Shown: piece by piece, positions 16,200 through 63,934 of the stretch
Numbering within the stretch: the stretch's first letter is position 1
How the letters are laid out: each line of letters begins with the position of its first letter
Source of the DNA: Scatophagus argus
Lineage: Eukaryota > Chordata > Actinopteri > Scatophagidae
NCBI RefSeq assembly: GCF_020382885.2
Contig: NC_058493.1
Span: forward strand, 22,441,499-22,505,498
DNA length: 64,000 bases
Direction: 5' to 3'
Made by a program: the position numbers and the translations under genes
The notes under the pieces: model-generated
What the model saw: only the letters and a program-made list of their open reading frames with translations
Database searches by the model: none
What the model was told of the DNA's origin: nothing

Positions 16200-16225
16200 G
16201 ACTTGAGGCTTTTAAACGACAAAAC

Positions 16226-19200: not shown

Positions 19201-22200
19201 TTTGTTTTCCTTGTAGCGTGGAAAAGCCTCTGCAGCAGTGCTGATCCTTTGAATGAAGATGTCTTTTGTCAGACAGAATATAATGGCAATTTAATGAGAC
19301 AACTAAAATGCCTGTACTTTAGTCATGTGTGGCTGTAATGGAGCTGTAATGATGTTATACGTAAACCCTTGACAAGCTCATGCAGGATCTTTGGCAGGAC
19401 ACCGTGCGCTTTATGCCTCCTCTGTCGACCATCTTAACCTCGAGGCATCTGCAGAGGCCGAGCACTGTGAACCGGCTGCAGCAAGCTGCCATTGAGTCAC
19501 ATCTAGTCAGAGATAAACTTTCCAAATCTGTATATTCCCGCAGCGCAGCACAGCTGGCTAACCAAAATAGAAATCGTTAAATCTGAACTATCAGGTTCCC
19601 TTCCTCTCCATCATAATCTGTAGGGGTTTGAAGAAACATGAAACATTATGAATACCTGTGAATATCATTTGCTTAAAAATGGACATTTTTTGAAGTACTA
19701 ACTAGACCGATGGTGCACTTTTGAGTTCCCTTAAAGATGCGTCTGCTGTATTTAGGAGTGCCTACATGTATAGCCATTGAGAGTATCTTATTGCATCACA
19801 TGAAGTGCAGTCTCAATTTACAGTGTGACCCTGTAGCAGCAAGAGGAGGTGGTTTGTCTGTATCTGGTCACCTCTAGGAATAGATGCTGGCCTTTACTTA
19901 GGAAGACCATATCGAGTAACTTGGCAGCAAAATCTCCTCGGACGAGTATGTTAATCTAGGGTCACATTTATCTTGGTGAATGGTATTTCTTCGACAGTAT
20001 TTGTATGAATTTTAGAGAGATTAGCATTTTTAAGCCACACGGAAATGTTTTCACTTCTGTCAACTTGTCTCTAATGTCAGATCTTTACATGTAGACAGGA
20101 ATTAGGCATATTTGTCCTAATTAAGAGCCTAATTAGATGACTCGTGTGTCATAAACATATGAGCTTATATACGTGTGTGTGTCTAAAAGTAGTGCATTCT
20201 CACACTTTATAGAAATCTTCTCAAAAAGCTGACTCTGGCTATTGGCACCATCACCACTATTTATTCTGCCTTTGAAGGTTTTTATAGTTAGTCAATTCAG
20301 ATATTTGACTATTTGAATTAAATAATTATCACATTATTCATTTCTTGCCAAATGATTAATCTGATTATTTTCATTTTTATGTGAAAATGCAGAGAGAAAA
20401 TGACAAGCACCATAAAGTAAGACTGGCCATTGGCAACGGTGTGAGAGCGGAGATATGGAGAGAGTTTCTCAGTCGCTTTGGGAACATTCAGGTTCGAGAG
20501 TTTTACGCCTCCACTGAGGGAAATGTGGGATTTGTCAACTACGCAGGAAAAATTGGAGCTATTGGACGAGTCAACTTTTTGCATAAGGTAAGAATGAGAT
20601 CAGAAAACATTTTTGTTTCCTGTTGACGTTGTTTCTGTTGTCATTTATGGACAATTCATTAGTGTGCATAAAATGGAAATACTCAAACAAAGTACCTCAA
20701 ATATGTGCTTAAGTACAGCACTTCAGTTAATGCTGGCCGATTGTCAGGTGAAGCCTTAAGAAGCTTTGAGGCTTGTTTGTGCCTTTGGGGCATCAAACCC
20801 AGCAAGCACAGTGACATCTGGTGGCCGTCCAAGAGGATTGCGTGTTATTAAAGATGCATACTGTTGTTCAGAAGTGCCGCTTTAAGTATAGATGTTATTG
20901 TGCTGCAAGGTACAAACTGCAAACCATGTGATGTTATTTGAGACTGATATTCAGTAAATATTAAATATTACTTTTATGTGGTATCAAAAGGAAATGTTCT
21001 CATAGTCATTATTTTTCTTTCAAATCTACATCCCCACATTTTTCAGTTATTCCCCTCTCCTCTCATAACACTATAGTGCCACACACATCAGCTTCACAGT
21101 AAAACTTTCAAAATCGTCAAACTGAACGTATCACTTTCCAAAGAACAAGTGATGTTTGAAGTTTCAGACGTCATCAGTCACATGATTTTCTTTGTTTGAC
21201 AGTAGCTCTGGTACAATGTATTGAAACAGGGTGTCTCACGGGAGTGAAACGAGCTTCAGAGCTTCAGAGATCATCCGCACATCTCAATTAAACACGCTTC
21301 ATTACAGTCCAGCACTAATAAATAATATGTGAATTCTATGTATTGGTTTTGGTTTTGGATTATGCTGCATGGTGTAAAGGTGTGTTGGGCACTTAATGCA
21401 ATACTGGTGTCTTTACCTCCTCCTGTAGAAGCTGTTTCCCTACACTCTGATTCGATATGACACAGAGCGGGATGAACCAGTCCGAGATGCTAACGGCCTC
21501 TGCATGGAGGCAGCCAAAGGTGAAGAAGCTTGTGCAAACTGCATCACAGACTTTCAGTCTCGTATCATCGCACTTAACGTAGATTATTTAACACACAGTG
21601 GCTCTCAGTACTACATCTTAAGTGCAGGGACTATTTACCAACCAAGTCAGGACCTCCCTGTGGTGGAGCAAGGAGTCTATTGATAGACCACAGCAATAAC
21701 AGACGTGTCTCTCGCTGCTTTGTTTTTAAGGTGAGACGGGACTGCTGGTGTCGAAGATCACAGACATTGCTCCTTTTGTTGGCTATGCGCACAATGAAGA
21801 ACAAACAGAGAGGAAAAGACTCCGCAATGTTCTCAAGAACGGAGATCTTTACTTCAACAGCGGAGACCTAATGAGGATCGATAACGACAACTTCCTGTAC
21901 TTTCAGGATCGTGTAGGGGACACATTCAGGTACACAAGTCCTGCGCATATTGATAATTGTTTATCATTTTGTGCTGCAATATATATATATGTTATAAAAC
22001 TGAAATAAAAGAGACTTGAATGCATCACAACACATAAGAAGGACAGATATAAGGTGAGGAAGAGTGAGAAACGTCATGTTGGCTTCAGTTTCTGTAGAAT
22101 CGATCTCTTCCCTCATTGATTTATGTGCAAGAGATTTAAAAGAGACTCGGCCTCTCTTAGAGTAAATTCTGACGAAGAAAAAGTTCTTTATTCTGTTTGA

Positions 22201-23272
22201 GTAAAAGATCAAATAAAACGGTTATATTTTCATGAATAGCCTGTTGCTATCTGACACACAGTGCATGATTATTATACAACACTCAGCTTTAAAAGAATGT
22301 TTTCTTCTTGCCCACAGCAATATTGGTTATGCAGAATACATATTTAAGACTTACTATTGACCACTGAGTGCAAATTTTAAGAAGTGCTGCAACACTATAT
22401 TTCCCTGTATGTTCTACACCAAGCTCTTTTAGAAAAACTTTCTCAATTTCTCACAGTTACAGACCTGTGAAATAATTTGTTTTTGATTTTATTAAAAAAA
22501 AAAAAACAAAACAAAACAGGTGGAAAGGGGAGAACGTGGCAACAACCGAGGTGTCTGACATCCTGACGATCTGTGATTGTCTCAAAGAAGCCAACGTTTA
22601 CGGAGTCAAAGTGCCAGGTGATGGTCATTTCCTCTGTACATTTCACCTCACGGTATGTTTATGTATAAGTATGTATAAGAATATCATGACTTCCAAATGG
22701 CAGAACAGTGAAGGGAGACATTGATTGATGTGGTCATGAATTAGTTAATGATGAAAAGTGCTTGATCTGTTTCAATTTCTTTCCGGCAATGTAGGGCATG
22801 AGGGGCGAGTAGGAATGGCTGCCGTCACTGTGCAGGAAGGTGCTCAGTTTGATGGAAGTAAAATATACAGTCATGTGGTTAATTACCTGCCCTCGTATGC
22901 CAGACCTCGCTTTATAAGGATACAGGTAAATTTATTTTCTCGCACACTTTACTGCATTGTTCTGTTCATTAAAAAAAGAAATAACAAAGACTGTGATCAG
23001 TGTTTATTCCCATCATGTTAGCATGTGATCAAAAGCACTTGATGATATTCTGATACAGTATCTGAGGGAGTAATTTGTGTTTTTCTTCTATTCAGAATGC
23101 AGTGGAGTTGACAGGGACTTTTAAGCAAATGAAGGTGAAGTTAGTGAAGGAGGGTTTTGAACCAGGACCTATCCAGGACCCTCTTTACATCCTTGATGAT
23201 CACAGGAAGAGCTACATCCCGCTGACGGCTCAGGTCTACAACTGCCTCATGTCAGGAAACGTCAAACTATGA
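16226..23272 (+). CDS. slc27a2: Very-long-chain acyl-CoA synthetase (FATP2), tandem copy 1
   Basis: Activates long and very-long-chain fatty acids to acyl-CoA at the ER and peroxisome and promotes their uptake. Ten coding exons: 16226-16709, 17279-17488, 17624-17782, 19008-19132, 20393-20587, 21429-21519, 21731-21929, 22520-22617, 22795-22925, 23096-23272; 622 aa (human 620). Residues 3-25 form an N-terminal membrane segment. The AMP-binding signature [14 protein letters not shown] begins at about residue 224, and the FATP-family motif [15 protein letters not shown] lies at about 485-499. The ATG exon is preceded at 16,200 by a strong pyrimidine tract plus AG, so a separate 5' non-coding exon is likely; a second ATG follows directly. 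Unlike copy 2 and human, it has LNPNIR where they have LNYNIR, and LPLCHTAGF where copy 2 has LPLYHSAGF. The C-terminus is NVKL. Confidence 0.93.
18893..18917. repeat. (AC)n microsatellite
   Basis: AC dinucleotide run in intron 3 of slc27a2 copy 1, about 90 bases before exon 4. Confidence 0.95.
20650..20740. repeat. AAGTACT-type repeat fragment
   Basis: Short fragment (AAATACTCAAACAAAGTACCTC and a following TTAAGTACAGCACTTCAGTT) of the dispersed family best seen at 8975-9500. It lies in intron 5 of slc27a2 copy 1. Confidence 0.4.
20745..21310. repeat. Possible diverged DNA element in slc27a2 intron 5
   Basis: Between a left block rich in GAAGC/GAGGCTT (20,749-20,775) and a right block rich in GAGCTTCAGAGCTTCAGAG (21,250-21,270), the sequence differs in texture from the surrounding intron. 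It also carries GACATCTGGTGG (20,813-20,824), a phrase recurrent in fish repeats. No clear terminal inverted repeat or target duplication could be set, so this is tentative. Confidence 0.25.
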
Positions 23273-23729
23273 GTCGAACTTAGTGTTGACTAATTGCGCA
23301 GCCTGCATTGGAACTTTTAATAATGAATTTCCAGCTCTGTGAATGAATACATTTTTTAATACTTTTTATCAATGCCTTTGTTAAAGGACGTAGATGGGAA
23401 TCAGAAATGTGGGATTCATTTTAAAGAATCATATCAAGCGCTGAAGTCGGCCTGAGGAGGAGGAAATCTGATAGATAGTAATAATATATTAAACAGCAAG
23501 TAATAATATAAATAGTATACTTTTTCCTAACATGATTACTGCTTTTCATTAAGAGGACAGCTGCTTTTATTTTATTCAGTCTAATGATGATGTCGCAAAG
23601 TGTTAACAGAATACTTTGCTTTTAGGAAAGATATGAGCAGCACGTAACTTATAAGAGTTGGAACACGGTCTAATGTAAAACTCTATAGTTATGTGCCAAT
23701 ATCTGTAAATATAAATGATTTCCCAGAGA

Positions 23730-23735
23730 ATTAAA
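23730..23735 (+). terminator. slc27a2: Poly(A) signal of slc27a2 copy 1
   Basis: ATTAAA about 460 bases past the stop codon, followed within 30 bases by a GT-rich stretch. A plausible 3' end. Confidence 0.45.
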
Positions 23736-23759
23736 GTGATTCTTACTGTAAAAACCAGA

Positions 23760-26440
23760 CCTGTGTTTCACATGCATCTCTGATTTTACTCACCACAACA
23801 AGACAAGTTTCAGGCACCACAGGTCACAAGGTGGAGACAAACTCACATGCAGCCAGAGTCCCCGTCCTCGGTGTAGCTGGGATGTGCTGTACAGCGTTAC
23901 GAAATGCTGACAGACTTTGACTGCAGGGATTTGCTCCCATTGAGCCACTATAACATTGGTGTGTTCCTACACTGATGCGGTATTAGCTTGACTCTGCGTT
24001 CTTTCAGAGCAAACTGGAAAACCTTCTTTATCGATGATGGCTTTGTTATGTTCTGCTGATCTGTGTGCCAAACGATCTAAATTGGCAGCAACACCAAAAG
24101 TACACACAAATACGTGAACAGGGCTGTCGACACATTAACCTTCACTGTGTATGCTTTTCTGTTTATTATGCAATTACATGGACAGCATATCTGTTCACCC
24201 CCCTGCCGTGTGTAATCGTTTCAGATGTCTATGAGTTAATGTTCAAATGACCAGTACCAGACCGGATGTTTGTTGTTGTTTTTTTATTAAGTTTTGCAGG
24301 ACTTAGCCTTGTAATGGAGCATTTTTACCTTGCTCAAGTGGTACTTTTACTTAAGGGATGTGAGACAGCAGATTTCTTTCAGGGCAACAAAGTCCCTGCT
24401 GTTAAAGCTTAAATGATACTTTCAAGATCAGTCATTTACACGCAAGTTCAAATGTCACCATTTTACTCTGTAAACATTGACAAAATGATCTCGGTAAGTC
24501 ATGTTCAAACAAATGTTTCCACAAGCCAGTCATGACAGACAACAAGAACGCAGTGTTGTTCCATGGGCCCTGGCTGAAATGTGAAACCTTTGAATCCATC
24601 TTGGAATTCACAAAAAATGCATCTGATTTATTAACGCAGCAAAAGTCAGCAAACTTGTTTTTTACTCGTTTACTGTCTTCTCTGAACAGTCCCACAAAGG
24701 ATTGCTGTTGGGCAGCAGGTCCGTTTGATCGACAAGCTGTCCATTTAGTCGAACAGTCGATGGCGAAACAATAAGAGCAAAACAGCACAGAAACAAAGAA
24801 GAAAAGTTTGAAAACGGTAGCCCCCCTCCCCCTCCAACGATCGCCCCACAGTTTTCCATCAGAACAAACGTGTTTGCGGTTAATCTGAGGGATTTGAACT
24901 CGCAGGTGGAAGATGATATACAGTTTTATTGTTCTTCAAACGCTGCTTGAATGGACACCAGTTGCGGGTTCTCCGTGGCTCTCTGAAAAAAAAAAAAATA
25001 ATGCTCAAACAGCAAGATAGAGAGTTCAAACAAACACGTCGACATCTCACTGTGACCCCAGAAAATGGAATTCACACCGAATTCAGTTTGACAATAAAAG
25101 CATGTCTCGTTAGCGAAACACGAGTTGACTTTTATTATGAAGTGGTCACCGGAAACGCAATGTGTATGTTACTGAGAGTGTGATTCGATGATTTGTTATC
25201 GGTCAACGAGAACACGGGCACAAGAAGACATCGCTCCTCTCCGCTCTTATTTTTTTAGTGCCGCAAATCTGAAGTATTACAGGCAGTAGCAGAACAAGAA
25301 GGAGCTGCCATAGTGAGCTGTCAGCTGACACATCCAGTTTCTCAGCCGGGTAACACACTGCTTTCACTGAGCCCTGCAACAAACACGTCGTGTGCAATTA
25401 AAATCACAGCGTGGTTACTAACAGAGTGATGGACAAAGGCCGACAACTGCTGGACTAATGTATTAATATGGTTAATTTTGCTGCATCCGTAATTGTGGTA
25501 TCCATAATATAAATCCCACTTGCTATTCCCACCAGTAACCACAGGTGGGCTGTAACTTCAATCCTCACTGTGTGCTTAATTAGCGTTTAAAAGCTATTAT
25601 TATTATTATGATTATGATTATTAATATTAATATTAAATTTCATGTCAATCGTGTTTTGGCAACACCTCAATAAAGGGTCTTAAACTGGGGAAATATTGTA
25701 ATATTACTGTTTTTAAAGGGGGCGGTGGAGGACAAAAATTTTGGGCGCATGCGTACTTCTAAAATGGTCTAAAACTGAAGCAAAAAGTACATAAATAGTT
25801 TATGCGTCCATGTATGTTTCACACATATAGTTATAGATGTGACGTATATAGGGTATTAAATGTAAATATTGCTATTTCTTCTTCTTTTCCTGTAGTTATT
25901 TGTGTTTGTTTATCTACATTTTCCATTTTCTGGTTTTAAAATCTGGTCCAATTGAATTTGTAGTTGAATAGCCTTGGTCTAGAACTGAGTTCTGCTTAGC
26001 ACTGCAGGGGATACTTATGAAAAATGTGTTTCAGTGGGCGTACGATAGCCGTATGCATTGTAAGGTGAGATTCAAAACGGTGTGAGAAATAAATATTGTA
26101 TCAAGCTTCGTATCCCCCCACCCCAATCTAGTCACTGGTTGGAGGTTTGAATTAATTATTTTTGGCAACATTTAGAGTAGAAATCCTGGTTTTGGCAGCA
26201 TTCACTGCAGGGCAAGAGAGGTTCTGTTCTGATAACGCAAAGGTAAAACAGCATTGCCAGAGTGAGCAATAGTAGCATTTCACAGACTATTGGCAGCAGT
26301 TGGATAATCAGGTTTCACCAGGGACACTACAGGCTCTTTTGTTACACACCCGGTGAAAATAGTTCAAAGTTCAATAGGCGTACCTGAACAGGCCTGTTTT
26401 CAGCTGTTCTATACTGCTGAACCGCTCAGGACTCTTTTAG
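23760..26440. other. Spacer between the two slc27a2 copies
   Basis: 2.7 kb without recognisable coding exons. It contains an AAGTACT-type repeat fragment at 24,290-24,375, trinucleotide ATT/TTA stretches near 25,590-25,640, and unexplained unique sequence. The promoter of copy 2 should lie in its last few hundred bases. The 118-aa minus-strand frame at 24,432-24,788 has no homology that I recognise. Confidence 0.5.
24290..24375. repeat. AAGTACT-type repeat fragment
   Basis: TTGTAATGGAGCATTTTTAC and GGTACTTTTACTTAAGGGAT are characteristic of the family seen at 8975-9500. It lies between the two slc27a2 genes. Confidence 0.45.
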
Positions 26441-26462
26441 CAGCAGGACTGACACGATTATA

Positions 26463-29400
26463 ATGTTTGCATATGTTCTGTATACCGCTCTTGCGGGTTT
26501 GGCAATTTTGCCATTGTTGCTTTATTTTAAAAACCCTTATTTTTTGAAAGATTTAAGTTACGCAATTACTGCAATTCAAATTGGCATGAAGCTGAATAAA
26601 TTCAGCAAACAGAAACCGCTTTACAGTATATTGGATTGTTTTCTGGACAAGGCGGCAAGGCAGCCACATAAACCGTTTTTACTGTTCGAGGAAAGCTCCT
26701 ACACTTACAGCCAAGCTGACAAGGAAAGCAACAGAGTTGCCAGGGCTTTGTCCATGCATGCTCACCTGAAGGAGGGCGATACGGTGGCCCTATTCCTGGG
26801 CAATGAGCCACAGTTTGTATGGATGTGGCTTGCACTGGCCAAGTTGGGATGCGTAGCTTCTCTGCTGAACTACAACATAAGATCCAAGTCTTTGCTGCAC
26901 TGCTTCTCCTGCTGTGAAGCCAAAGTCCTGGTTGCTGGTGCTGGTAAGCTGGGAAACTAAGACTGAGATAGACTGTCATGCTGTATGTGATTATGAAATT
27001 CATTTATTTGTTTGTCTAGTGTTGTATAAAGGAATATAAGGTGTCAATGGTTTTCCTCCCTCTCTAAATAATTATTGTCTCCAAAACCTGCATGTAAACT
27101 AAAGACATCAGTTCATGAACGTTTGTTCAAATTACAGGAATTAAACTGACCTCTTCATTAATAAATGATAAATAATGTTAAATGTGTACCACCCTGAGAC
27201 TATGTTCTTTGCATGGTGTTGGGTGTTTCTTTTGACTTAGCATGAAGAAACAAATCCGCTACATTCTGAAAAAGTGACTCATACAAGGCAATTTAGGTGA
27301 AAGGGCTGAAGCAAGGCGTCTGGACTTGTGAAGATTAAATGTGATACGATAGTTAATTTTCACAAGTCCAGATTGAATGACCTGGATGACTGAGAATCTT
27401 CACAGACATGAGGCAATTTAGGGTTGAAAAATCAACTCTTTTCATGCTCTCTGACCTGGCAAATACATGTGGCTTTTCTGCTCCTGGTTTATTTGAGGAC
27501 TTCTCTAAGACACAACAGTGCTCAGCAATGCTGGGGTTATTGAACTTTTGAACTTTTTTACAAATATTACATTTCATTTTTGCCAATAGATCCTCAGAAA
27601 TCCTACAGACTGGGTCCTTGAACTACGTTTTCAAAAGAAATGAGCAAATTACGTAAACAATGGCAACAATTACAAACCATTTAATGGTGACATTGTTTCC
27701 AAATTATCTCAAGCACATTTCTGTCCTGCTGTTATTTAGTTTCAGTTGTAGAACAATGCTGAATTTGATCTTCATTGGCTTTATTCCCATGATTGTCTAC
27801 ACCTGGGTGAAACACTGTTCTCCCATTTTTATTGTCCCTGCTTTGACGTCCCTGAAGCCTCCAATAGCTCTCGTTTGCATGTCTCTCTCAGACTTGCGAG
27901 GGGCTGTGGAGGAGGTGTTGCCCACGCTGATTCAGCAGGGCGTCCGTGTCTTCATCCTCAGTGAAGACTGTGATGTGGAGGGCATTGAAAGCCTCTCTGA
28001 TAAGATTCAGCAGGCCTCAGACCAGCCTCTGTCACCTCAGCTGAGGGCCAACGTCACCATTAAGAGTCCTGCACTGTACATCTACACCTCAGGAACCACA
28101 GGTAACGTGACCTTGACCTCTTTGTTTATGTTTTTAGTGTGCAGGCCTTGTGTGACGGACAATAAAGAATAAAATGATGTTATCTTTAGGACTTCCTAAG
28201 GCAGCTGTAATTAACCATGAGAGGCTGTGGATGGCCTCTTTTCTTCAGTCTGTTGCTGGCACCCGCTCAGACGATATCATCTACGTATACCTGCCTCTTT
28301 ACCACAGTGCTGGCTTTCTGATGGGGCTTTGTGGAGCCATAGAGAAAGGTAATTTATGGTATCATAAAACTACAAACCATGATTTCCAGGCTGCATTTTG
28401 AGTTCACTCAAGGTCATGCAGGTATACAACCTCAAATAACAGAGAGTTTGGCCCTGGTCACCACTATTTGTATTTCAAAGTCCTCAGGGTCATACATAGT
28501 TTACGACAGTGACTGAACTTTTAATATTGAGATAGTATTGTTGAGCCTACTGTTGTGAGTACTGTTGTGTCTCTTCGTTTCTAGGTATCACTGTCGTTTT
28601 AAGACGTAAATTCTCTGCTTCCCACTTCTGGAATGACTGTAGAAAGTACAATGTGACTGTCATTCAGTACATAGGAGAAATTATGCGCTACCTCTGCAAC
28701 ACACCGCAGGTAAAGCCCAGGATAAAATCACAAATGGCTGCTTATATTGTTTAAACATTATTACTGACGACATTGATACATTTATATAAAACTTAAATAG
28801 TTTTTCGTGACATTTGCATGATCAGCTAACAGCACTCAGAAGACACTGATAAACCTAGTGTTCCCTTCTCTCCAGAGAGACAATGAGAAAGATCATAAAG
28901 TCCGACTGGCTGTGGGGAACGGGATTAGACCTGACGCCTGGGCTGATTTCCTGAAGCGATTTGGAGACATTCAAATCTGTGAATGCTATGGAGCAACAGA
29001 AGGAAATGTTGGCTTTGTCAACTATGTTGGCAAAGTTGGAGCTATTGGCAAGGAGCATTTTCTCCATAAGGTAAGATGTTAGGGTTCGCCCCTCATGCGT
29101 ATTGAAAGTTTCAGTCAGGATAAACTTTTACAGGTGCTAATTGAATCATTACAATATAAAGAATATACAGGCAGATGTAGTTTGAGTCTAAATGACCAGA
29201 TCTTACTTAATTCTTTTCTATATGCTTAATTTTTTTAACTGTTTTTCAGATGGGATGCCCGTATGCCCTCATAAGATATGACACAGAGAAAGAGGAGCCA
29301 GTCAGAGACTCCAGAGGATTTTGTATTGAAGTGCCCAGAGGTGAGCCAGGCTCCACCAAAAACATGGCTCTCTATTTATTTTATTTTTATTTTATGTTTT

Positions 29401-30955
29401 GCTTTTACTAATATGCGCCACATGCTTGCTGCTCTCATCTGCAGGAGAGACGGGGTTGCTGGTGGCAAAGATCGGAACAAGAACACCATTCAGTGGCTAC
29501 GCCAAGAACAAGCAGCAAACGGATAAGAAGAAGCTGACTGACGTGTTTGTGAAGGGAGACGTCTACTTTAACAGTGGTGACCTCCTAAAGATAGACAATG
29601 AGGGATTTGTCTACTTTCAGGACCGCATTGGAGACACTTTCAGGTCAGTGGATAAAACACTTCGACCAAATAAATGTGCAAATAATAGAGACAATACACC
29701 TGCACATCACAACACCTGCAAAGCCAGACTGTTTCCAATTTCAAAATCACCGGAAACTGACTTTGATGAGGACAACTCTTAACATTTCACTAAATTCAAA
29801 ACCATTTAAAGCCTTGGATGCAGACACCCTGTTTGTTCTTGTTTTCCATATTTGATACCCTGTAGTTGCTGTTTAATTATCATTATTATTACTATTATTC
29901 AGCATTTTCTCCAAATGAAAATGATTGTATCTGACTTATAACAAACTCTTCACAGTGCTAGCTGAAAACATGGCAGCTAAGCTACGCATGTACTGTCTTT
30001 GTGTTGTTATAAAACACAGGTGGAAAGGAGAAAACGTGGCGACCACAGAGGTGGCCGATCATTTGCTCATGGTTGACTGCATCGAGGAGGCTAATGTCTA
30101 TGGTGTGAAGGTACCAGGTAATAATAACATGCATTAATTATTAGCAGTGATTTAAGATGTATCATCTATGTTAGGCAGTGTTTTAAAGAATGTTCTTGTG
30201 CTGGGGAAAATGAGTATGTCTAGCATATGAAACTGGAGAAAAAGTCTGAACCTGTCAGCACTTTATGTTTGGGGTTTTTAAAAGACTTACAAGACCAGAT
30301 CTTGGACTTATTTAATATGTTAACGTGCCCAATAATCTTTAATCAGTGTAATCATCACCCAAGTAATCCTGCAAATGACAGCAGAAGTCAAAAATATTAC
30401 AGCTGAGAAGAATTTGAACTAGGGCAGCATGCATTTGAAATAAGTGTTCATATACTTAATATGAATTGCAGAAAGAGCTGCTTATATTTCCCCTTCTGAG
30501 ATGAGCTCTCTTTTTACTTTGGCCTTTGCTGATTAGGACACGAGGGAAGAATTGGAATGGCAGCGCTCAAGCTGAAAGAAAACATGGACTTTGACGACAA
30601 AGCCACATATCAGCATGTCAAAAACCACCTCCCCAGCTATGCGAGGCCACGCTTCATTCGCATACAGGTGAACACATTACTGCAGATTTTACCTACAAGA
30701 TTAAAAACAAAACGTCTTGCATTTCATTTTTTTTTAAATGAAAATGTCTTGCAAACATAACCATTTCTTTTTCTCTGGCAGAGTGCACTGGTAGTTACTG
30801 GGACGTTTAAACAAATGAAGATGAAGCTGGCAGAGGAGGGATTCAACCCTGCTGTCATCAGCGACCCTTTGTTCTACCTGGAGGACAACAAGGGCTACGT
30901 ACCCATGACTCAGGAGATATTCAACTCCATCGCAGAGGGAAGAGTCAGGCTCTGA
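26463..30955 (+). CDS. slc27a2: Very-long-chain acyl-CoA synthetase (FATP2), tandem copy 2
   Basis: Paralogue of the upstream copy with the same reaction and likely ER/peroxisomal site. Ten coding exons: 26463-26943, 27892-28101, 28190-28348, 28585-28709, 28876-29070, 29250-29340, 29445-29643, 30020-30117, 30537-30667, 30782-30955; 620 aa, the human length. Exons 2 to 9 have exactly the lengths and phases of copy 1 (210, 159, 125, 195, 91, 199, 98, 131), so the pair arose by duplication of a whole gene. The N-terminal membrane segment (res 4-21), [14 protein letters not shown] (from about 223) and [15 protein letters not shown] (about 484-498) are all intact. It keeps LNYNIRSKS and LPLYHSAGF like the human protein, so it is the more conservative copy. 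Introns are shorter than in copy 1. The C-terminus is GRVRL. Confidence 0.93.
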
Positions 30956-31318
30956 ACGAGTTCACTGTTTATCATTGGATTGTCAACCTCAAGTAGTACA
31001 TTTGATTTTTTTTTTTTTTGTCATTTTTTAGATGACACAAAAGGGCCAAATAATGATGAATAACCTGCACATTACATGAGCTATTTAATCTTCTGTGGGG
31101 AATATTGTATACTGAAATATATTAGGGGGATGTAATTTTGTTTTACATGCTTTTTTTAGTTGTAAAGATTTGTTTTATTGAAAGATGCTGAAGTTATAAT
31201 GCAATTGCAGTACTTAAAATGTAGAAACATTTCTGTTTATGCATGAGGAGATAGAGTTAAAAGGCAGGAAGAGCAAAGATACACAAATGTATACAGGTAC
31301 ACACAAATATACTTGTAC

Positions 31319-39137: not shown

Positions 39138-47521
<8,384 letters not shown>

Positions 47522-47988: not shown

Positions 47989-49104
47989 AATGCTAATGTT
48001 GCACATTGAAAAATGTAAATACTCGAGGGCAAGGTGTTTCTCTGTTAAGTGACCAAATTCAATATTTTTTTTTTTCCTTCAAAGTAGCAGCCATCATAGT
48101 GTCTCCACGTTCGTGAGCGTGTTTTAGGGGTTTAACGCTAAAGCCTTCTGATGTTGTTGATGGAAGAGGCTACCAGTGTTGGATTTTGCTTTCTACCTAA
48201 AGAGAGAATAGGGAATGGAGATTGTTGCTTGTTCATATTAGCCACATTCTTGCACTTACACAATATGCAATCAGTTTAAGTTGTTTATGTAGATCACATT
48301 GTTTAACCGCAGACATTAATACTCGACTGAGAATGCTTTAAAATGATGCTGATGCTGAGACTGAGCTCAGATCGGCCAGTGACAGAAAAACCTTCCTGCT
48401 TCTGTAAAGTTTGTCGTAGATTTTATTCTCTCTTAAGCATACTTAACTAGCTGCATTGTTATATTCAAACACAAAACTATTTAGAGGAAAAATCACTGGG
48501 ATAACTTGGCATTCTTATTGGCTCGTTTCTAAGAGGCTGGAAATTCGATTTATCTGATTAATTTTGTTTCTGTGTTCAGTACTGACCCATGAGAATATGA
48601 AGAGTTGAAGACCTGACTGTGTTCACTTACAAGAGTGCGTTAGCATCAACGTTTGCTGCCTGACTTGCTGACTGACGGGACTGACAAGAGCAAGCACAAA
48701 GTATATTACTGATATATTTTTTCTGAATGGACCAGAGATCTGAGGTGGCTGGACGCTCTACTTCCTTAGTGCAGTTTTATTGCCTAGCATGAGATCATAA
48801 TCTGTTTTCTTTTTACTTGTACATGTTGATTTTATTTCTTAATGCTCTAAAAACAATTTGTTTCAGATATAACGATTATACTAACCTCAAACAACTCATA
48901 TGACTATTTATTAAAACTGCTTCAAATTAGAGTCTTTGTGTCTGAATGATTCAGGATTTATCGCCTACAGTGGCGCCACAAAAAGACTGAGAAGCTCAAT
49001 GAAACCTGATCCATTAAACATCTAGACCCTTCATTCCTGAGGTTCTAGGACAATCTGATCTATCTGATGTACGAGCAGTTGGATATGATAATGTCACACA
49101 TGAA

Positions 49105-49110
49105 ATTTAT
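49105..49110 (-). terminator. Poly(A) signal of the usp50-like gene
   Basis: AATAAA on the minus strand (TTTATT on plus), 163 bases after the stop codon. Confidence 0.5.
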
Positions 49111-49272
49111 TTGGAGCACAGATAGGGAGAAGTCAGCAGAAGGACAAGATGTTACAGTGGCGGACTTGCAGTGGGCAGTTAAAAAAAGGGTATCAAAATG
49201 GATAAAGCCCAAAGGACAAGGAGGAAGTCGAAGCTCATTCCCATCATGGGTTTGGCCTGCTGTTCAGAGAGC

Positions 49273-52200
49273 TCAGAGTCCATGAATGTTTGGCTTTTGA
49301 AAGGGTTTGTGGCTGTAGAGCAGCATGTAGGCGTTTGGAGATTGCACGAGGCCGTCCTGCACCTCTCTGACCGCTGAGTCGTCAAACCAGTGCCAGGTGT
49401 GGGTCAGGGCACTGTGGCACAGAGCTGTGTAGTGACCTACATTCAGATTACCTGTGTGGTTCTAGTGAAGGAAAGAGTACAGAAACGTCATCCCCAGGCA
49501 GAAAGGAAATACAGAGATAATTATTTGCTGATATTTATGCAGATGTTATACTCTGGCTTAATTTGTTTTTATTTTGGCAAGTGCTGCCATTCACAGTTGC
49601 CAATTTTCTGTAGCCATCATATCAAGAAAATCAAATCTGCAAGTTGCAGCTTTTCATTTCCACGCGTTGACATAAATGCCATCCTAAAAAAATCTGCGAA
49701 AATAAAGCGGAATGATGAACATAATGAAGAAAAAAAAACTGTTGACAATGAATGTGTGTTTACTCACCACAACAGCATACAGGCGATACGAAAAATATGA
49801 GTTGTTTTGCACTGAGCTGGATAGGAATGGGCTGAGATCGAGCTTCGCGGAGAACGTAACATTAGTCCTCAGTTTCACCTGGTTCTTCCCCTTACAGCCA
49901 AACCTGGAGATGAGATGGTTTACAGCTAATAGACTATTGGACATGGTAGCACTTGGTCAGCACATAAAGAATTCATGACCCTTCTTGAATTAATGCATGA
50001 CTTTACATGATGCACTGTGAAGGCCTGTGAGCCAGTATTAATACATGCTCAAGGCATATTAATTTGTGTACTTTACATTCATAAAGTTATGGCCCATTAA
50101 ATGTTAACTCAGTTAAATCATCCATAATTAAAATGTCTCAAGTTTGCCTTTTTGTTTATTTATTTTACAGACTTTCTCTTGCACGTCTGCCCACTGAACT
50201 GCTTCTTAAATTAACATTTATTGGTTTATCAGTTTTAATTTTATTTAACCTTTTCCTCCAGCTATTCTTGTAATGTGGTCGTTATACTTTTCTGAGGTTT
50301 TTCTGAAGCTTGTAAAGTAACTTCTGAATGCATAACTAAAGAACATGCAGAGTATTTGAAGGGAAAATAGAAGTTTATCCCTGTCTGAAACTTAACTTTT
50401 AAGCCTACACGCACTAAAAGTCCTCAAGTTGGCAGAATTCTAGATCTTATGAAGATCATGTGATACGACTGAAAGCCCCACACCAGCTGCTAAGTGGACC
50501 TGTAGGTGAGATTGTGGTGTCGATTTAATCTTAATTGCATGCAGTTGTTCATGATAACTAAATATTCATAAATACCATGTGTGCCCTAAGAGATCATTTT
50601 AAGTTTCTGCCCACCTTTTCAGGTGCAACATGAGGATCTCGGGAGGTTTCTCCAAACATGTGAAGACTGTCGTTTCTCTCCTCAGCCCACACACTGAACA
50701 CAGCATCTGCTCTGCCCCGGTGAGGATACTCTGCTCGAAGAACAGTGACAGGCAGTCCTGCACCACATAGACACAATTGTGAGAAAGGGTGGAATAACAA
50801 GAGTAGTATGACCGCTAATATCTAAAATATGACTTCCCTGCAGTCTGGGTGATGTTTTTAATAGTGCAGAATGAGAGCGGCGAGCACCTGCAGCTGTTTA
50901 AAGGTACCTGAATGGAGCACTTAATGTTGTCTGTTGGAATCGGCAGGGACAGTACAGTGAAGGTCTGTGTGCTGTGAGCCTGGTAATCGCAGCGCATGCA
51001 GAGGGTCGTGTAGCTCAGCTGGCCTTCGAACAGATGTGACACAATGGTGGACTCGCCCGCTGCAGAGGCGCCGCTTCTGTTACGGTCTTGTCTCTGCTGT
51101 CTTTTCGAGGAGCGCATCTGACGCTTTGCAGCCTTTCAACACACAAAAACACACATTCACTCTTTCTGTATTTAGTGATTTGGCACACAAAGGTATGTGG
51201 CGAGTGACTGTGAAGATGCAGTTGGTGCACTTCTGGCGTTTTGGTACCTTTTTGAGGTCGTCGTGGAGTGCGTTGAGGAGAAAGAGCAGCAGTTCCTGGG
51301 CGTCTTGCTGAGAGTAGTTGTTGAACTGGGGGAGGATGGAGCAAAGCACAGACCTGGCCTCCACAGGTGCACAGCTGGAACTCCTTCCCATCCACATTTC
51401 CTCCAGCAGGCGTACAAACACCTCGGCCACCCGGCACTTGGACCTGCATGAACAAGGTTAAACCACTGAGAAAACCGGACTTTGAACGTGGAAGCGAGTG
51501 TCTGAAAGACAGGCGGTGGGTGGTCTTACCTTGCCAGCTCTTTGCGAGTGTTTTGATTAAGGAGGTGCTCCACGAAGGGCACAGTGGAGCACAGACACTG
51601 TAGCACAGCATTTAAATAGCAGGAGTTGCCCGAGTTGTCCAAACCGCAGACTCCTGGTCTGTTCCACCTGTGCAGCCTCGCTGCAGGGATGCAGGATTCT
51701 CGTTTCTCATTTTCCATCAACTGACCACAGCTGATTGTGCTTGTCCTGTAAGACCAGTGAGAGAGCGGAAACAAAAACATCTGTATTCCTTTGCAATGTT
51801 GCACACAAACAAGGACTTCATCAGTTTTAAATCATTGTAAATTGAATAGATCACGAAATTGGGATCTGGGAAAGGATGGGATTTTTTAAATTCTTTTCTA
51901 GAAAGTTACTGACCAAACAATCATAACACAGATGTTACTGTAGGTTACCATTAAAACAGAGATTAATTGTCTCCTAATTAACTGACCTAAAATGACTCAG
52001 TGACTTGAAAGAATGTAATTCCACGTCTCATTGTTTGTTGCAGATAAAAATAAGATTTAATTCATCTAAAGTTGCAAAGAAAACAATTGGGTTGAATTCA
52101 AAATGACAGAGCCTTCCACGGTTTTCTTCGATACAGATATTTTTAGTGATCAAAAGCTTTCAAAGATAGAAAGCTATAACTGTAGCACTGCTTTGGTTTG

Positions 52201-53502
52201 CTGCGTTTTCAGTCATTATCTGTGAAGGCTGTTCTTTAGAACAAACGGTCAGACTAACCTCTGCTTTGAACTGCTTGTTAGATTTGTGTCTTGGTATGAG
52301 GTGCTATTCAGCCGCGGCAGAACAGGCACGGTGACGCTGCTGTCCACGACCAGCTGGGAGGCCAGAGTCCTGGTGAACTCTGTCAGCTGGACCTGCCTGT
52401 CTGAGCCCTGGTTCTGCAGTGTGTGGAGTGTAAACGTGTTGATGCAGATGATGTGCAGCGCTGCCCAGAGGCCTGGGAGAAACACATCTACCACCGATCC
52501 CTTCAGGTCTGATGGAGGAACCAGAGCAGGTCCGGTCCAGCCCTGCAGGTGGGCTACAAGTTGAGATGAACCCTCAGATGTTTGTGGCTGAGGTGGCGCC
52601 ACTGATGGAGATGATGTTGGATCCATGACAGGCATTTTAACAGTTGGAGCAAAATTAATCATGACTCCTAAGCTAGAGAAGATGTCTGTGAGTCTGCCCT
52701 CCATCCAAGCAGAGCTGTCCAGCTGAACTGGGTGTCTGTGGCTGCAGAAGGGTTTCATCAGGTGTCCAACCACCTGCTCGACTACAGGTTTCCTGCTCTG
52801 CTTCTGGAGTTGCTTGGGACAGTACAGATACATGTTACAGATGAACCCAGAGCTCGTGTCGCAGAGGAGGGCGAGATGGAGGGAGCAAGGACCCTGCTGG
52901 TAGAAAAGTCTGTATTTCTTCACGGCCAGGTTGTGACCAGGTGTGTACAAGGCCTGATACCGCCTTGTTATGTGGCTACAGAAAGCAGAGAGGGCTTCCA
53001 ACTTGTCTTTGTTCTCCAGTCTGGTCAGTGACAGGAGGCTGGTCTGGAAGCTGTTTCTCTTCAGGACGCCCTGCCATCCATCCAGTTTTAGGGTGAGCTC
53101 AGAGTCAAAGCTGCTGTTCTCTCCTACAGACAGGCCGCTTTGTAAGACTATAGAGAACCATGTTAACGTCTCAGCGTACTCCCCCTCAGAGAGATCTGCA
53201 CTCTGCTCTTTGCTCTGGTTATATGACGAACGGTTAGAGCCTGCCTTCACCCCGGCAGCTCTCCTGATCAGCTCCCGGATGGCTCCTCTGTCTAGCACTT
53301 CCAGCAGAAGCTCTCTGGCTGTATGGTAGACCTGGTAAGTGGGTCCAGTTTCAGTCCTGGTGAGTGACTTCACTTTTTTGGACCTGAAGATGTTTGGTAA
53401 GCACAGGCCGTCGCCCTGGGAGTCTGCATGCAGCTCGTCCACCAGGTGGCACTCCTCAGACATCCAGGCACACTCCCTCACTGACAAAGCCTTGGCCTTC
53501 AT
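49273..53502 (-). CDS. usp50: USP50-like deubiquitinase with predicted N-terminal piggyBac-derived domain
   Basis: Predicted exons: 53502-52259, 51745-51530, 51443-51248, 51132-50908, 50757-50615, 49903-49768, 49461-49273. Together they give 2,349 bases, an open frame of 782 aa. Residues about 55-385 resemble piggyBac (PGBD) transposases: YTPGHNLAV at about 186-194, then [16 protein letters not shown], then VQLDSS and a Trp/Asn-Ala-like C-terminal block. Residues about 440-775 are a USP domain: Cys457 in [43 protein letters not shown] and CSVC zinc pairs, His730 in [10 protein letters not shown], Asp747/748 in WHWFDD. Position beside usp8 and sequence point to usp50. An internal ATG (M425) 32 residues before the catalytic Cys could start a USP-only form, as in human USP50. 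The join is inferred from phase (AG|G) and good splice sites, not from transcripts. The USP half is the more certain part. Confidence 0.8.
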
Positions 53503-53508
53503 CTTAGC
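52259..53508 (-). mobile_element. Domesticated piggyBac-transposase-derived exon
   Basis: One uninterrupted 1.24-kb coding exon, against 136-216 bases for the internal USP exons, as expected for captured intronless transposase sequence. Family hallmarks: EYAETLTWF and [14 protein letters not shown] upstream, [27 protein letters not shown], a cognate of the VDNF block ([15 protein letters not shown]) and [19 protein letters not shown]. The first catalytic Asp (VDE in active elements) is replaced (AVKK, res 193-196); the second (LD, res 262) is kept. No terminal inverted repeats or TTAA target pairs were noticed. The 5' limit uses the acceptor AAGCAG at 53,509; the 3' limit is the donor AG|GTTAGT. 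Confidence 0.68.
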
Positions 53509-53589
53509 CTGCTTGATTTAAGAGAAAAGCCATCTAAAAATGGTGAGAGCTCTGGTCAGGAACCACGATGACATGTCAAGAGATAAGCC

Positions 53590-53820
53590 TCAAAAAAGCA
53601 TAATTGCAGTGTGCCTGAAATCCCTCCTTGTTTGATGACAAAACGAGAAGACAGCCAGGGGCAGAGCGTAGTCCTTTAGGGTGTCTGACAGACTGTGTGT
53701 GCTGTTCATGTACGTATATGCTGTGTGTTGATCGCGTCTCAGGTGAAACACTCCTGAGAATCTGCCGTTGAGGTAAATCACCAGGTATCCACTGTTACCG
53801 GACGACTGTGTCATGGCAAC
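53590..53820 (-). other. Possible additional upstream exon, unidentified
   Basis: A good acceptor (TTCTGTTTGTAG|G) opens a frame without stops for 77 codons (VAMTQSSGNSGYLVIYLNGR at its start) that ends in TGA at 53,590. The translation looks protein-like, with a YLVIYLNGRFSGVF stretch, but no family was recognised and no strong donor was found to link it to the piggyBac-like exon 80 bases further on. It could be a 5' exon of that gene using a weak donor, the last exon of another minus-strand gene, or chance. Confidence 0.3.
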
Positions 53821-55859
53821 CTACAAACAGAACACATTGATCGCAGTGTAACTCCCAGGACATGTTTTTTGTCCTGCTGTGGATGATTTCACAGTTTGGC
53901 TTTACATTTAGAAGACTATATGGTAGCTTCGCAGAGTAATTATCAGTCATCTGGCTGCAGGGTTTTAAGCTTATGTCAGAAATACAACTCCTGTACAGCA
54001 GCATTTTGCCAGTTACAGACTATGGCAACATGTATTATTATCTCACAGGCTTTTTTTTCCTGTCCACTCTGGAATAGCCAGTTCACTTGTACTGTGCTCT
54101 TTTCATTGTTATTGCCACAGTTGGTCTATTGAGCCATCGGCAACACGGCTCTTGTAATGTCTGCTCATCCCACCCCTCACCTCTTACGTCTGAACATTAC
54201 CGACATTCAGACACAGCATAGGAACACGTCATCTTTTACTCCGGACTTTGAGAAAACAGCTGAAGTCAACATTGTTTTTGATGGTGTTAAAGACTTATTT
54301 ATATCAATATATGCATATACATAAAAAGACCAGTAAAGATCAGTTGAAGGCTGCTCAGTCATATGTGTGAATACACCTGCAGTTAAACTTGCTGAGTTGT
54401 CTCTCGCAGCATCAGGATTAATATAAATGCATTTCTGGAAGTGCTATCAGTTCCAGCTACCACTCACTGATTGATTGATTGATCGATCGACTGGTTGTAC
54501 ATTACACAGGTTGTAGCTCTGGGAGAATGATATTTCCCTTTTTCACAAACAGACGGTCCATTTACTTACTACAAAGAGAAAGCAGTCCTTTCTGAATTTG
54601 TGCACAAAAGTCAAGGAAATAAATAATTCAGCAGCTCACCTTCTGTTTTCCTCATTCATGCCTCTTTGTTACATGCAAGAATCTTGTTGGTTTTAGGCAT
54701 TGTTTTCTGTGATCTCATACACAAAACTCCTTCCTCTCTTCTTTGGCATGCCATAGAAACCTGACGTTTGTGGAGCATCATTGCACAAATTACACACATT
54801 CAGACCTGGAAACTGCGAGCACAACCTGCTGCCCAGAGCACTGTTACCAGAGCCGTCCACGATTAAGCATCTGGCTGAACAGCACATCAACAGTGGCAAT
54901 AAGGTAAAGGAAAATGCCACTCTTTCACTTCCCTGCCCATGAAGTGGATGTGCAACTTTTGGGACTGCGACAACAATCTGAGAATTTCCCCTCTGTGGGA
55001 CTAATAAAGGCCTATCTCGCCTTGTATATCTTATCTTAAAATATCATCAGTTTATATCAGGCTGCAGATTCTCCACAAGGGGAAGCTGTTCACTCACTTA
55101 GATGAAGTCTACACGGGCCAGCCTGTGTTTCCCACAGAAGAGAAAACTTAACAGCAAAGTCACTTCAGACCTTCAATTTGGAAGTAATGATGTCGCCCCC
55201 TACAGGGAAATAAAGTTATAGCTACCACAAATTTAATACTTTGTGGCAAAAATGTTGTTAATCCAAAAGTAAATCATAATGTGTTTCCCTCCAAGTGTAC
55301 ACTTATTGTTTGTAATTTATTCAAAATGTTTCTCACTTTACACAAATAATTTACCATACATTTGACAGGCATGAATGTTGATAAATCATTAATAAAGAGT
55401 CTTAGATTATTAACTATTATAATAAGCACCCTTAGGGCCCCACCTTCTCTCCAAACTAACCATGAAAGTCGTGCAGGATGGCACCCCTGGCTGTGGAATA
55501 TTTTACAGTTTTACATTTGCAGGTTTAAAATTTAACATATAAATCCTCTAATAAACAAATGGCAACCAGAAGAAAGACTCCACAGTTACTTCACTGGCGC
55601 AGGCGTGAAAGTTGTCCAAGCTATTGCTTTGCCCGCCTGCATACAACACACAGGTCACACAGTTGCTAAACCTGTGGATTTGATCCAACGCTAACCATAT
55701 GGGGACAGAAAAGTCACACATTTGTAAAATTGCAAACTGTTTTGCTGAAATACACATAAATTAGTCAACAAAAAGACTGAAAACAGGAAGAATTATTCAT
55801 CTCACAGCAATCTATTGGCTATTGCCATCATTAGTCTAAAGTTCCCCTGGGATTTATCT

Positions 55860-56030
55860 CTAACCCCTAAAAGAAAGTACTAATACCACAACATGAAAGT
55901 ACTCCACTGCAATCGAACGTCCAGCATTTAAAACCTTAGTGCAGTAGCAGCATGTATGTATTTCCAGCAAAATGTGTAACTACTGTAGTACTTGAGTAAA
56001 TGTTCTTAGTGATATTCCAGCACTGTAGTT
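55860..56030. repeat. AAGTACT-type repeat
   Basis: GAAAGTACTAATACCACAAC, GAAAGTACTCCACTGCAATC and GTAGTACTTGAGTAAATGTT mark another copy of the dispersed family, in the gene-free region before mapk6. Confidence 0.5.
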
Positions 56031-57358
56031 TCATGAAAAGGATGTCATACACTGCAAGCAGAAAGCAGAGTTTTATTAAAGCCAGCAGAAAAATAATGTC
56101 GTGAGCCACAGTGCAGAGTGAGATGACACTAACATTGTGTATTTCTGTCATGCAGGGCTAAACAAGTCTCAGCAGCAGTCTCTGGTAAGTGTTTTTCCCA
56201 CAGTGAATGTACTGTATGTGCTGCAGCACCGGGGCGTCGTGACAATACCCTGCCTTCTGTCACTGGGGGTGGAAGAATCGCACAATCACCTCGAGGGCTC
56301 TGGGAGCTCTCGTGCATAAATCAAATCCACTTTCAAGCACAAAATATGCTAATCCATTAATATCAAAGAGCATCTTCACTCCTTCAGCGCGCCCTTTTGA
56401 GCTTTCTGCTCTTCCTAATTTAAAACCTATTCATTTGAATACATAATCGTTCACAGGCTGCGCCTCACTGTGAAGTAGCCGGCCCATGTCACCCACACAA
56501 TGAAAAAGAAATCACACGCTGATGATTTTATTTCATGTAGGAGTCTCATGTGACACAGGCAACATTTTAAAATCCAACACCCTTCAAATTAGCTCCTGAG
56601 CTGTAAATTGTCCATTTGATGCTCCGTTGGTTGTTGAAATCAGAAAACAGAAAAAGCACAGTTTGCTTCTCTGTCTATTTGTTTTCCAGCAAACAAGCAG
56701 TTTACAAAGAGAATAAAGATAAATGATGAAGAAGTAGTAATACAGTTTGGTCCTGGATTCAAAATTGGAAAGCAAGTAAAGAAAGGGTAAAGGAGGGTGG
56801 GTGTTTGTACATGCATTTTAGTGCAGTTTTAATGCTCGTTAAGCTATCTTTAATGTATCAGTTTATTTTATTGTCAACTGCCCTCCTTAATTTTGCTCTT
56901 ATTTCTACGTGCTGTTTATACCACAGCAACCCATCACATTTTAAAAACAGACTACATGTTGTGCACAAAAAAAATCAGAACATGAAAAGTAGCTAATAAC
57001 TCAACAAACTACCAGATAACTCAAAGAAAGTACCTCAAAACTATACTCAAGAAGTTACGTTGTAATGAACTTTGCACGTTTCACCCCTCAGTAAAAATGT
57101 GGGAGTAAATAATGTAAAGATGTCAGCAGAGGTGAACCATCAAATGCCGACGCTCCCTCAGTTCCTCTGCTAATAAACTGTGAAAGGTCACAAGAGTTGG
57201 TCTCTTCATTATGAGCTTTAGTCACACAAGAAGCTATTTGTGTTGAATTCAGATTTAATTCTGAAGACTCAGCAAGAACACTGAGTTACTGAATTCTGCA
57301 GCACATCCTGAAGTGCTGATGCTGTTTGTTTCCCTGCATTCTGGTGAGTTTAGTTCCG

Positions 57359-57385
57359 CACACACACACAGACACACACACACAC
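57359..57385. repeat. (CA)n microsatellite
   Basis: CA run with one interruption (a G at 57,371). Confidence 0.9.
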
Positions 57386-59396
57386 GTTCTGAGGAACAAG
57401 ACATCTTTGCTGCTGTGCTCTGCTTATCAGGATGTTCACTAATTCATGAGCAGTACAAGTGAATATGATTAAAAAGGCAAAATACACCAGTGAAAGTATG
57501 AGACACGCTGTGTGAGGCTGCAGAAGGTCCAGTGCTGACACGGAGTGGTCTGTTATCTGTGAGGGGAACCGCACAGTGGAAACGTCCACGTCCTGAAAAA
57601 AGGTCAACTTTGTTATGGAAAACACACGGAATTGTTATTATGCTGGGAATACATGCAGGCTTCTGTCGTGTGAGCGATGCTTGTAAAACTACTGGCCACA
57701 GTGTGGAAAATGGGGACAAATGTTTATTTATTTTATTTTTTTTTTCCTTTTCAGGCTGCCTCGAGACCTGAGACCATTTCCTGGTACAGTACAGCTTCCT
57801 ACATATGTTTATACATTTGAAATGTTAGTGTGGAACCCTGGAAGTTCCCAAAGAGTATATGTGTATATTTTTGTGAGTTATTTCGCCAGGATCATTCACT
57901 CAGTATCAGCACTGTTTTATACTGAATATATAAAAGATGATCAGTTAAACAATAATACAACACATTATGTTGTGGAGAAAATGAGAATAAGCTACAGGCC
58001 AACGAGCGAACACAAAATCTGGCATGAAATCAGAATTAAGCAAAAAGTAGATGTACAACACAATTAAGAGATAAAAACCATAGAAATATCTAACAAAAGT
58101 CCAAAACATGTTTCATGTTTCTTAATGCTCAGACTCAAAAATATTTTAAAAAAAAAAAAAAAGTAGCAGCAGCTGGAAGAGAGAGCAAAAACAGCGAAAT
58201 CAACACGAACCAAAAAGCCTGTCCTCAGAAAAACAGTCTCCACAGGATGTGTAACCAATGAGGTCAAATGATGTGCTCTAAAATCTGCCATGCAAATCAT
58301 TAGCTAAACACACACCAGACTGAATCCTTCGCTTTCTTTAATTGTACAACACGCCAAAGTGAAAATAAGACGTAATTTCTCTCCATTTTGAGGCGCGGTC
58401 TGTGTGGCCAAGCTGCATGTTAAGGAAGAGAAGCAAATAAATTCATATTGGTGGTGCTGTTGTTTAATGAGAACATTATGAATATTAATAAGCTTCTAGG
58501 ATGGTTTTCTTTGAATGAGGGCACAAATATCCATGTCGGCCACCTTTGTTCATCTCGCTGGCTCCAGAGTACTTGGGCCTGACTGAGGACTAATGCATTT
58601 TCTCTCAGAGCGCTTGAAGGTGTGCAGAGAAATTTTTACTCTCAGGGTGAACACAAGTCGTTGGATGAAAAGACCAGCCAGTTTCATCTGCTCTCCTGTG
58701 AGGGATCGCTGAAGTGTGAATCTAAACCCTACATTGCTTTGAGGTCATGTAAAATGACTAGCTGATCTGGAGTCAGTGATCGGGACGCTCTGTAACTTTT
58801 GCTCTTGTTAAAGCTTTCAGAGTGCAGGTCCTTGGGAGCTCATGTCTATTTATAAAGGCACTTTGTGTTCTAACTTTGGTCACCCAGCACTGTGCACAAC
58901 TCTGAATATGGACACACATTCGGACACTGAGGAGCCGTAATGAGCAGCCTCAAGTTGTAGCAGATAACTATTGGATGCTTGTGCTTTTGTCCCTGCATTT
59001 TCTCCACTTCACTGCAAAACCTCTGCCAAGTGGGTCATCGCATGCAAGTTATTCCAGTTCTTTCCACTGGAGGAAATTCTGTAAAAGCTAAAACACTTCC
59101 TGGTTCTGAGTTTTAATTGGCCTTCCAGGAGAGAGAATAGCGTTCATGACCTTGAATTAGTAGGTGATGCGTTAAGCTTACTGTCAGCTGATGGGTGGTG
59201 ATTTGAGCTGCTTATCCCGGTGTTCCTGGATTTTATTTTTAACCTGACAACACCTGTCAGGCCCAGGACATGAAGAGGAGGGGGCTCTAATGGTGACGCA
59301 GTGAGGGAGCATGAGAAAGTGAAGTATGGTGGTGCATGGCTGAGAAAAATACACATTACGTAGTTGTAACTTGCAGATGTGTGGGCTGCCGGTGAA

Positions 59397-61823: not shown

Positions 61824-63934
<2,111 letters not shown>

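Follow-up and report, generated by a model that had tools for sequence, protein, structure and literature searches.

Fusion of a host gene to a transposase is a known route to new genes. In the primate protein CSB-PGBD3, a host gene and a piggyBac transposase with a mutated catalytic aspartate are joined by splicing. Its N-terminal part comes from the host, and its C-terminal part is an intact transposase open reading frame with its own poly(A) signal. A splice acceptor lies just upstream of the PGBD3 reading frame, and both fused and unfused proteins are made (PMC3459987). PGBD5 is an old domesticated piggyBac of chordates in which the catalytic aspartates are not conserved; its transposase domain is spread over seven exons, and the account in PMC3902484 describes no fusion to an enzyme. 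The inactivity of PGBD5 is disputed (PMC4625184).

Human USP50 is a chromatin-associated protein that acts at stalled forks and supports fork restart. It is classed as inactive for want of acidic residues, although some reports of activity exist, and its USP domain is 36.6% identical to that of USP8, the gene for which lies head-to-head with that for USP50 (PMC11405836). Zebrafish is counted without USP50 in a list from 2009 (PMC2809080).

In the genome of Scatophagus argus (570.7 Mb searched, 48 contigs), a long exon that derives from an inactive piggyBac transposase seems to join usp50 by in-frame splicing, which predicts a hybrid protein. The locus lies in the window, the whole stretch of 64,000 nt analyzed here (22441499-22505498 of contig C1). 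Its features are listed below, with a slash marking exon–intron borders.

53593-53820, minus strand: 76-aa open frame that precedes the piggyBac exon, with a fair acceptor-like site at 53820 (rank 7 of 205)
53508..53528, minus strand: acceptor-like site ttttctcttaaatcaagcag/g, first exon base 53508, 6 nt before the ATG (rank 2 of 205 AG sites)
52259..53502, minus strand: piggyBac-derived candidate coding exon 1, 1244 nt, codons 1-414 plus 2 nt with a phase-2 donor; Pfam DDE_Tnp_1_7 at residues 95-264
52253..52261, minus strand: splice donor GAG/GTTAGT, last exon base 52259 (rank 1 of 93 GT sites)
51746..52258, minus strand: predicted fusion intron, 513 nt, 34% GC, with ATTAAA inside at 52061-52056
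51530..51745, minus strand: usp50 exon 2, 216 nt, start of the USP domain, with Cys457 (GNSCYLN) and the alternative start Met425
51248..51443, minus strand: usp50 exon 3, 196 nt
50908..51132, minus strand: usp50 exon 4, 225 nt, first cysteine pair (CMRC, 597-600)
50615..50757, minus strand: usp50 exon 5, 143 nt, second cysteine pair (CSVC, 647-650)
49768..49903, minus strand: usp50 exon 6, 136 nt
49273..49461, minus strand: usp50 exon 7, 189 nt, His730 (GHYTA), Asp747/748 (WFDDS) and the stop
49106..49111, minus strand: AATAAA, the closest poly(A)-type signal past the usp50 stop
44290..46877, plus strand: usp8-like paralogue, five USP-domain exons, transcribed towards usp50 and used to compare intron places

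The structure of the predicted fusion gene is well supported by the sequence. Its seven exons run on the minus strand from 53502 to 49273 and total 2349 nt, or 783 codons including the stop; these coordinates and sums reproduce those of an earlier sequence-only reading of the locus. The joined frame encodes 782 aa, contains no internal stop, and runs through the transposase and USP parts by canonical splicing, with GT-AG borders at all six introns. The 514-base spacing proposed earlier between exons 1 and 2 corresponds to the 513-nt intron. Left unspliced, the piggyBac frame reads …R-L-V-stop and thus ends three codons past the donor, again as the sequence-only reading had it.

The USP part is easily recognized. 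A UCH domain extends across exons 2-7 (E 2.4e-60, residues 448-769) and covers 254 of 254 profile positions, and the closest solved structure is that of USP8 (8xpn, E 3.4e-63), bearing out the earlier view of a complete USP50-like domain. Cys457, His730, and Asp747/748, which we take to be the catalytic residues, align with their USP8 counterparts, giving the full set of a USP deubiquitinase, and the USP part of the fusion is probably an active deubiquitinase. The neighboring gene at 44290-46877 is presumed to be usp8 from its resemblance. The name usp50 is used here on the basis of likeness to USP8 and of position beside the usp8-like gene, which lies on the plus strand with usp50 adjoining on the minus strand. 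The two proteins of the window are 36.4% identical over 286 aa. As a USP-domain gene beside USP8 with a similar identity to it, human USP50 resembles the fish gene (PMC11405836). However, the human protein lacks the acidic residues, while fish usp50 keeps Cys, His, and Asp; the human pair is head-to-head, while the fish genes converge; and the sections on human USP50 in PMC11405836 mention no transposase part such as the one predicted here. The loss of USP50 activity may be lineage-specific. Elsewhere in the window, two tandem genes were recognized by eye from open frames at 16166-31000 on the plus strand. They presumably belong to the long-chain fatty-acid transport/acyl-CoA synthetase type (slc27a2-like), and frames on the minus strand that we take to be gatm-like and hdc-like flank the pair.

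Descent of exon 1 from the piggyBac transposase superfamily is supported. Pfam DDE_Tnp_1_7, the family against which the earlier reading had proposed to check the N-terminal part, matches residues 95-264 with E 1.2e-9 and 38.4 bits, above the curated cut-off of 22.4, and the match persists inside the 782-aa fusion (E 4e-9). An hhalign comparison with 11 piggyBac ORFs of S. argus gives a probability of 95% (E 3.7e-8, 195 columns). Sequence identity is low, at 23.9-25.0% over 138-156 residues for the best long piggyBac ORFs of the genome and 32% over 50 residues for one piggyBac fragment (L002). Queried alone against the solved structures, exon 1 returns only two weak matches, an aminopeptidase (E 0.4) and piggyBat (E 0.6). 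A tree of 15 rows, built from exon 1 together with 14 long piggyBac ORFs out of 24 (those excluded being mostly near-identical), puts exon 1 on an end branch of 4.3-4.75 without a trustworthy place. Structure prediction from the single sequence, without an alignment, yields an uninformative model with a mean pLDDT of 34.6 and 409 of 414 residues below 50.

Genome searches with exon 1, both as protein and as DNA, turn up no other copy (the next protein matches have E 4.9 and 9.8), and among viral contigs six pattern matches yield no confirmed relative. An active element would carry terminal inverted repeats with a TTAA target site; a general repeat scan of 48000-58000 reveals no convincing flanking pair among the 25 longest of 33 repeats. 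The genome holds at least 119 piggyBac matches; exon 1 is not among the matches listed, presumably as it is too diverged for the first search. Several piggyBac families have copies at different places that are 94-100% identical in protein (L011, L014-L016; L012, L018, L019; L013, L017; L022, L023, L025, L027, L029), and piggyBac elements have therefore probably moved recently in S. argus. Two single long piggyBac frames, L030:964-2865 (minus strand, 634 aa) and L010:1183-3231 (minus strand, 683 aa), have host-like codon use, the highest after exon 1, and look like other domesticated piggyBac genes. In the alignment, L030 is without the QY.P.KP loop and without an equivalent of D346.

Comparison with the solved piggyBac transposase (PDB 6x67) in three alignments, each of low identity with 61-71 identical residues, indicates which parts exon 1 retains (domain limits as in PMC7351741). 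Segments matching both dimerization/DNA-binding halves and the RNase H-like core are present: 129-132 of 147 residues are covered in the first half and 53-65 of 79 in the second, which is less certain. In contrast, the insertion domain is poorly covered (20-32 of 62 residues), and scarcely any of the C-terminal Cys-rich domain remains, with 2-7 of its 42 residues aligned, depending on the alignment. The first catalytic aspartate, D268, is replaced by Lys195 in all three alignments, while D346 corresponds to Asp262 in all three; the equivalent of D447 is Gln320 in two and Asp332 in one. The aspartate of an LLCD motif (D215) was considered as a catalytic residue and rejected, since alignment with the solved transposase places D346 at D262. 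Exon 1 thus has neither the D268, D346, D447 set nor the Cys-rich domain of an active element, and the transposase part looks inactive. Compared to CSB-PGBD3, the transposase of the S. argus fusion would be N-terminal, far more diverged, and without the Cys-rich domain, and its host partner would be a deubiquitinase. Compared to PGBD5, it occupies one exon joined to USP exons.

Several lines of evidence point to exon 1 as a coding exon. The longest stop-free run in 52249-53520 is 422 codons, longer than in all 1000 dinucleotide shuffles (maximum 254). The synonymous-codon score of exon 1 is 0.296 bits per codon versus 0.081 ± 0.041 in 1000 shuffles, 0.339 for usp50, and 0.388 for usp8; the 24 long piggyBac ORFs of the genome all score lower (−0.164 to 0.211), as do the other five frames of exon 1 (at most 0.184). 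Because usp50 and usp8 had trained this model, it was repeated with a second one trained on the open frame at 61827-62954, which we take by eye to be a mapk6 exon and in which a Pfam search finds no family at E 0.1. The second model gives 0.220 for exon 1, 0.249 for usp50, 0.260 for usp8, and −0.339 to 0.197 for the 24 piggyBac ORFs. The signal is uneven, and two of the six 69-codon blocks (codons 70-138 and 277-345) score near zero; in codons 277-345 the other two forward frames outscore the reading frame. In simulated drift without selection, exon 1 stays free of stops with a probability of 0.014 when 0.1 substitutions per site have accumulated, a level at which about four stops are expected, and none of 2000 runs stays open at 0.2. 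By comparison, the best long ORF matches of exon 1 are only 23.9-25.0% identical to it. This argument hinges on the age of the insertion, because part of the divergence from piggyBac ORFs may predate it. The GC content is 54% in exon 1 and 34% in the fusion intron, and the change point at 52298 has a range (52180-52315) that takes in the donor at 52259.

The splice sites were scored with textbook weights, not trained on this genome. The donor at 52259 has the top score among the 93 GT sites that the minus strand offers from the ATG to exon 2; it is in phase 2 in the open frame, in agreement with the phase assigned earlier, and the next phase-2 open candidate lies 5.5 bits below it. The 11 other donors scored in usp50 and usp8 span −0.72 to 6.85, and the 3.59 of the 52259 donor falls within that span. 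A point against this donor is its T at position +3, which is rare. Among 205 AG sites in 51700-54300, the acceptors at 51745 (exon 2) and 53508 rank first and second. The site at 53508 suggests that the piggyBac exon may not be the first of the transcript and that a 5′ exon would lie upstream, much as PGBD3 has an acceptor just upstream of its reading frame (PMC3459987). For each of the 24 piggyBac ORFs, the best acceptor-like site was taken from the 150 nt preceding the first Met; one (L008) had an equal site within 10 nt, and another (L020) had a better site, which is 55 nt away from its first Met. The 76-aa frame at 53593-53820 is unsupported as an upstream coding exon, its best Pfam match (E 0.019) being below cut-off.

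Exon 2 starts at a strong acceptor and therefore needs an upstream donor. The phases of the usp50 and usp8 introns agree in six of six compared, five of them at aligned, anchored places. The fusion intron and its usp8 counterpart form the unanchored match, with 33 and 35 residues to the conserved motif and little similarity between, and a phase match by chance has a probability of 1 in 3. Given this agreement, which for the fusion intron is one of phase and distance, the exon 2 acceptor is probably the end of an old USP8/USP50 intron to which the piggyBac exon supplies the upstream partner. In a genome search, exon 2 hits its own locus and, more weakly, one site on contig C16 (49% identity over 39 residues, E 5.5e-7), taken to be another USP gene.

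The preferred reading, with a probability of about 0.72, is that usp50 took over an old piggyBac copy as a coding exon and that splicing yields a 782-aa fusion. The insertion would date far back and lie within the usp50 5′ intron or immediately upstream of it. The transposase frame would then have been retained, bounded as an exon by an acceptor that closely precedes the ATG and a donor that closely precedes the frame end, and spliced to the old phase-2 acceptor of exon 2. Compatible with this reading is an arrangement like that of CSB-PGBD3, in which an upstream usp50 5′ exon precedes the piggyBac exon and only some transcripts carry the latter before exon 2, giving both fused and plain USP50. 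The strong acceptor-like site at 53508 speaks for it, as does the precedent of PGBD3, where an acceptor just upstream of the reading frame likewise accompanies fused and unfused proteins (PMC3459987). The upstream 5′ exon is hypothetical and has the splice-site score in its favor; the arrangement is a tentative, if realistic, possibility.

Two separate genes are unlikely. A stand-alone domesticated piggyBac gene would end after codon 414 and use the ATTAAA at 52061 for polyadenylation, while usp50 would begin at Met425 or from a separate 5′ exon. The stop codon three codons behind the donor, the placement of the ATTAAA inside the intron, and Met425 as a possible start of unfused USP50 all fit such an arrangement. 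It would, however, have the best-scoring donor coincide with the end of the frame and match the usp50 acceptor in phase, require a piggyBac protein without its C-terminal Cys-rich domain, and leave the strong acceptor of exon 2 in need of an upstream donor. More improbable still is an unexpressed, decaying piggyBac fragment upstream of usp50 that is open by chance. Decay would be in keeping with the loss of the first catalytic aspartate and the Cys-rich domain and with the two blocks of exon 1 that are without host-like codon use. Against it stand the 422 open codons, a frame that drift would soon have broken, the host-like overall codon use, and the good splice sites flanking both frame ends.

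The product of the spliced fusion would combine an inactive, piggyBac-derived N-terminal half with a USP domain that has a complete Cys-His-Asp set. The USP part should cleave ubiquitin, and the transposase half, without transposition, would be a helical module, perhaps a dimer, that serves the deubiquitinase as a dimerizing or DNA-proximal element. Such a role is likely because exon 1 aligns with both dimerization/DNA-binding halves but has lost catalysis and the Cys-rich domain. We infer that RNA is produced from the fused gene, that the insertion is old, and that the transposase half acts as a module. The proposal in the sequence-only reading that this half steers a USP to DNA or chromatin fares less evenly. 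The aligned dimerization/DNA-binding segments favor it; the missing Cys-rich domain and the lysine in place of the first catalytic aspartate count against it and make sequence-specific binding of transposon ends unlikely. Chromatin targeting by the fusion protein is conceivable. The full proposition, that selection acts on the fusion and that its catalytically dead transposase half uses the dimerization/DNA-binding module to recruit an active USP50 to DNA or chromatin in this fish, with transposase and host enzyme in the reverse order of CSB-PGBD3, is doubtful.

The open-licence papers searched include none naming piggyBac together with USP50, and, judged by titles or the starts of abstracts, none on a piggyBac–deubiquitinase fusion; subscription papers lie outside this scope, and absence is not proven. 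The open-licence papers that name piggyBac and USP8 are, by title, not about a fusion, and neither "deubiquit" nor "UCH" occurs in the main text of a survey of transposon-domain fusions (PMC12062965). A fish USP50 that keeps the catalytic residues and carries a transposase module, if real, would make it possible to ask if one lineage acquired DNA targeting and the other lost enzyme activity.
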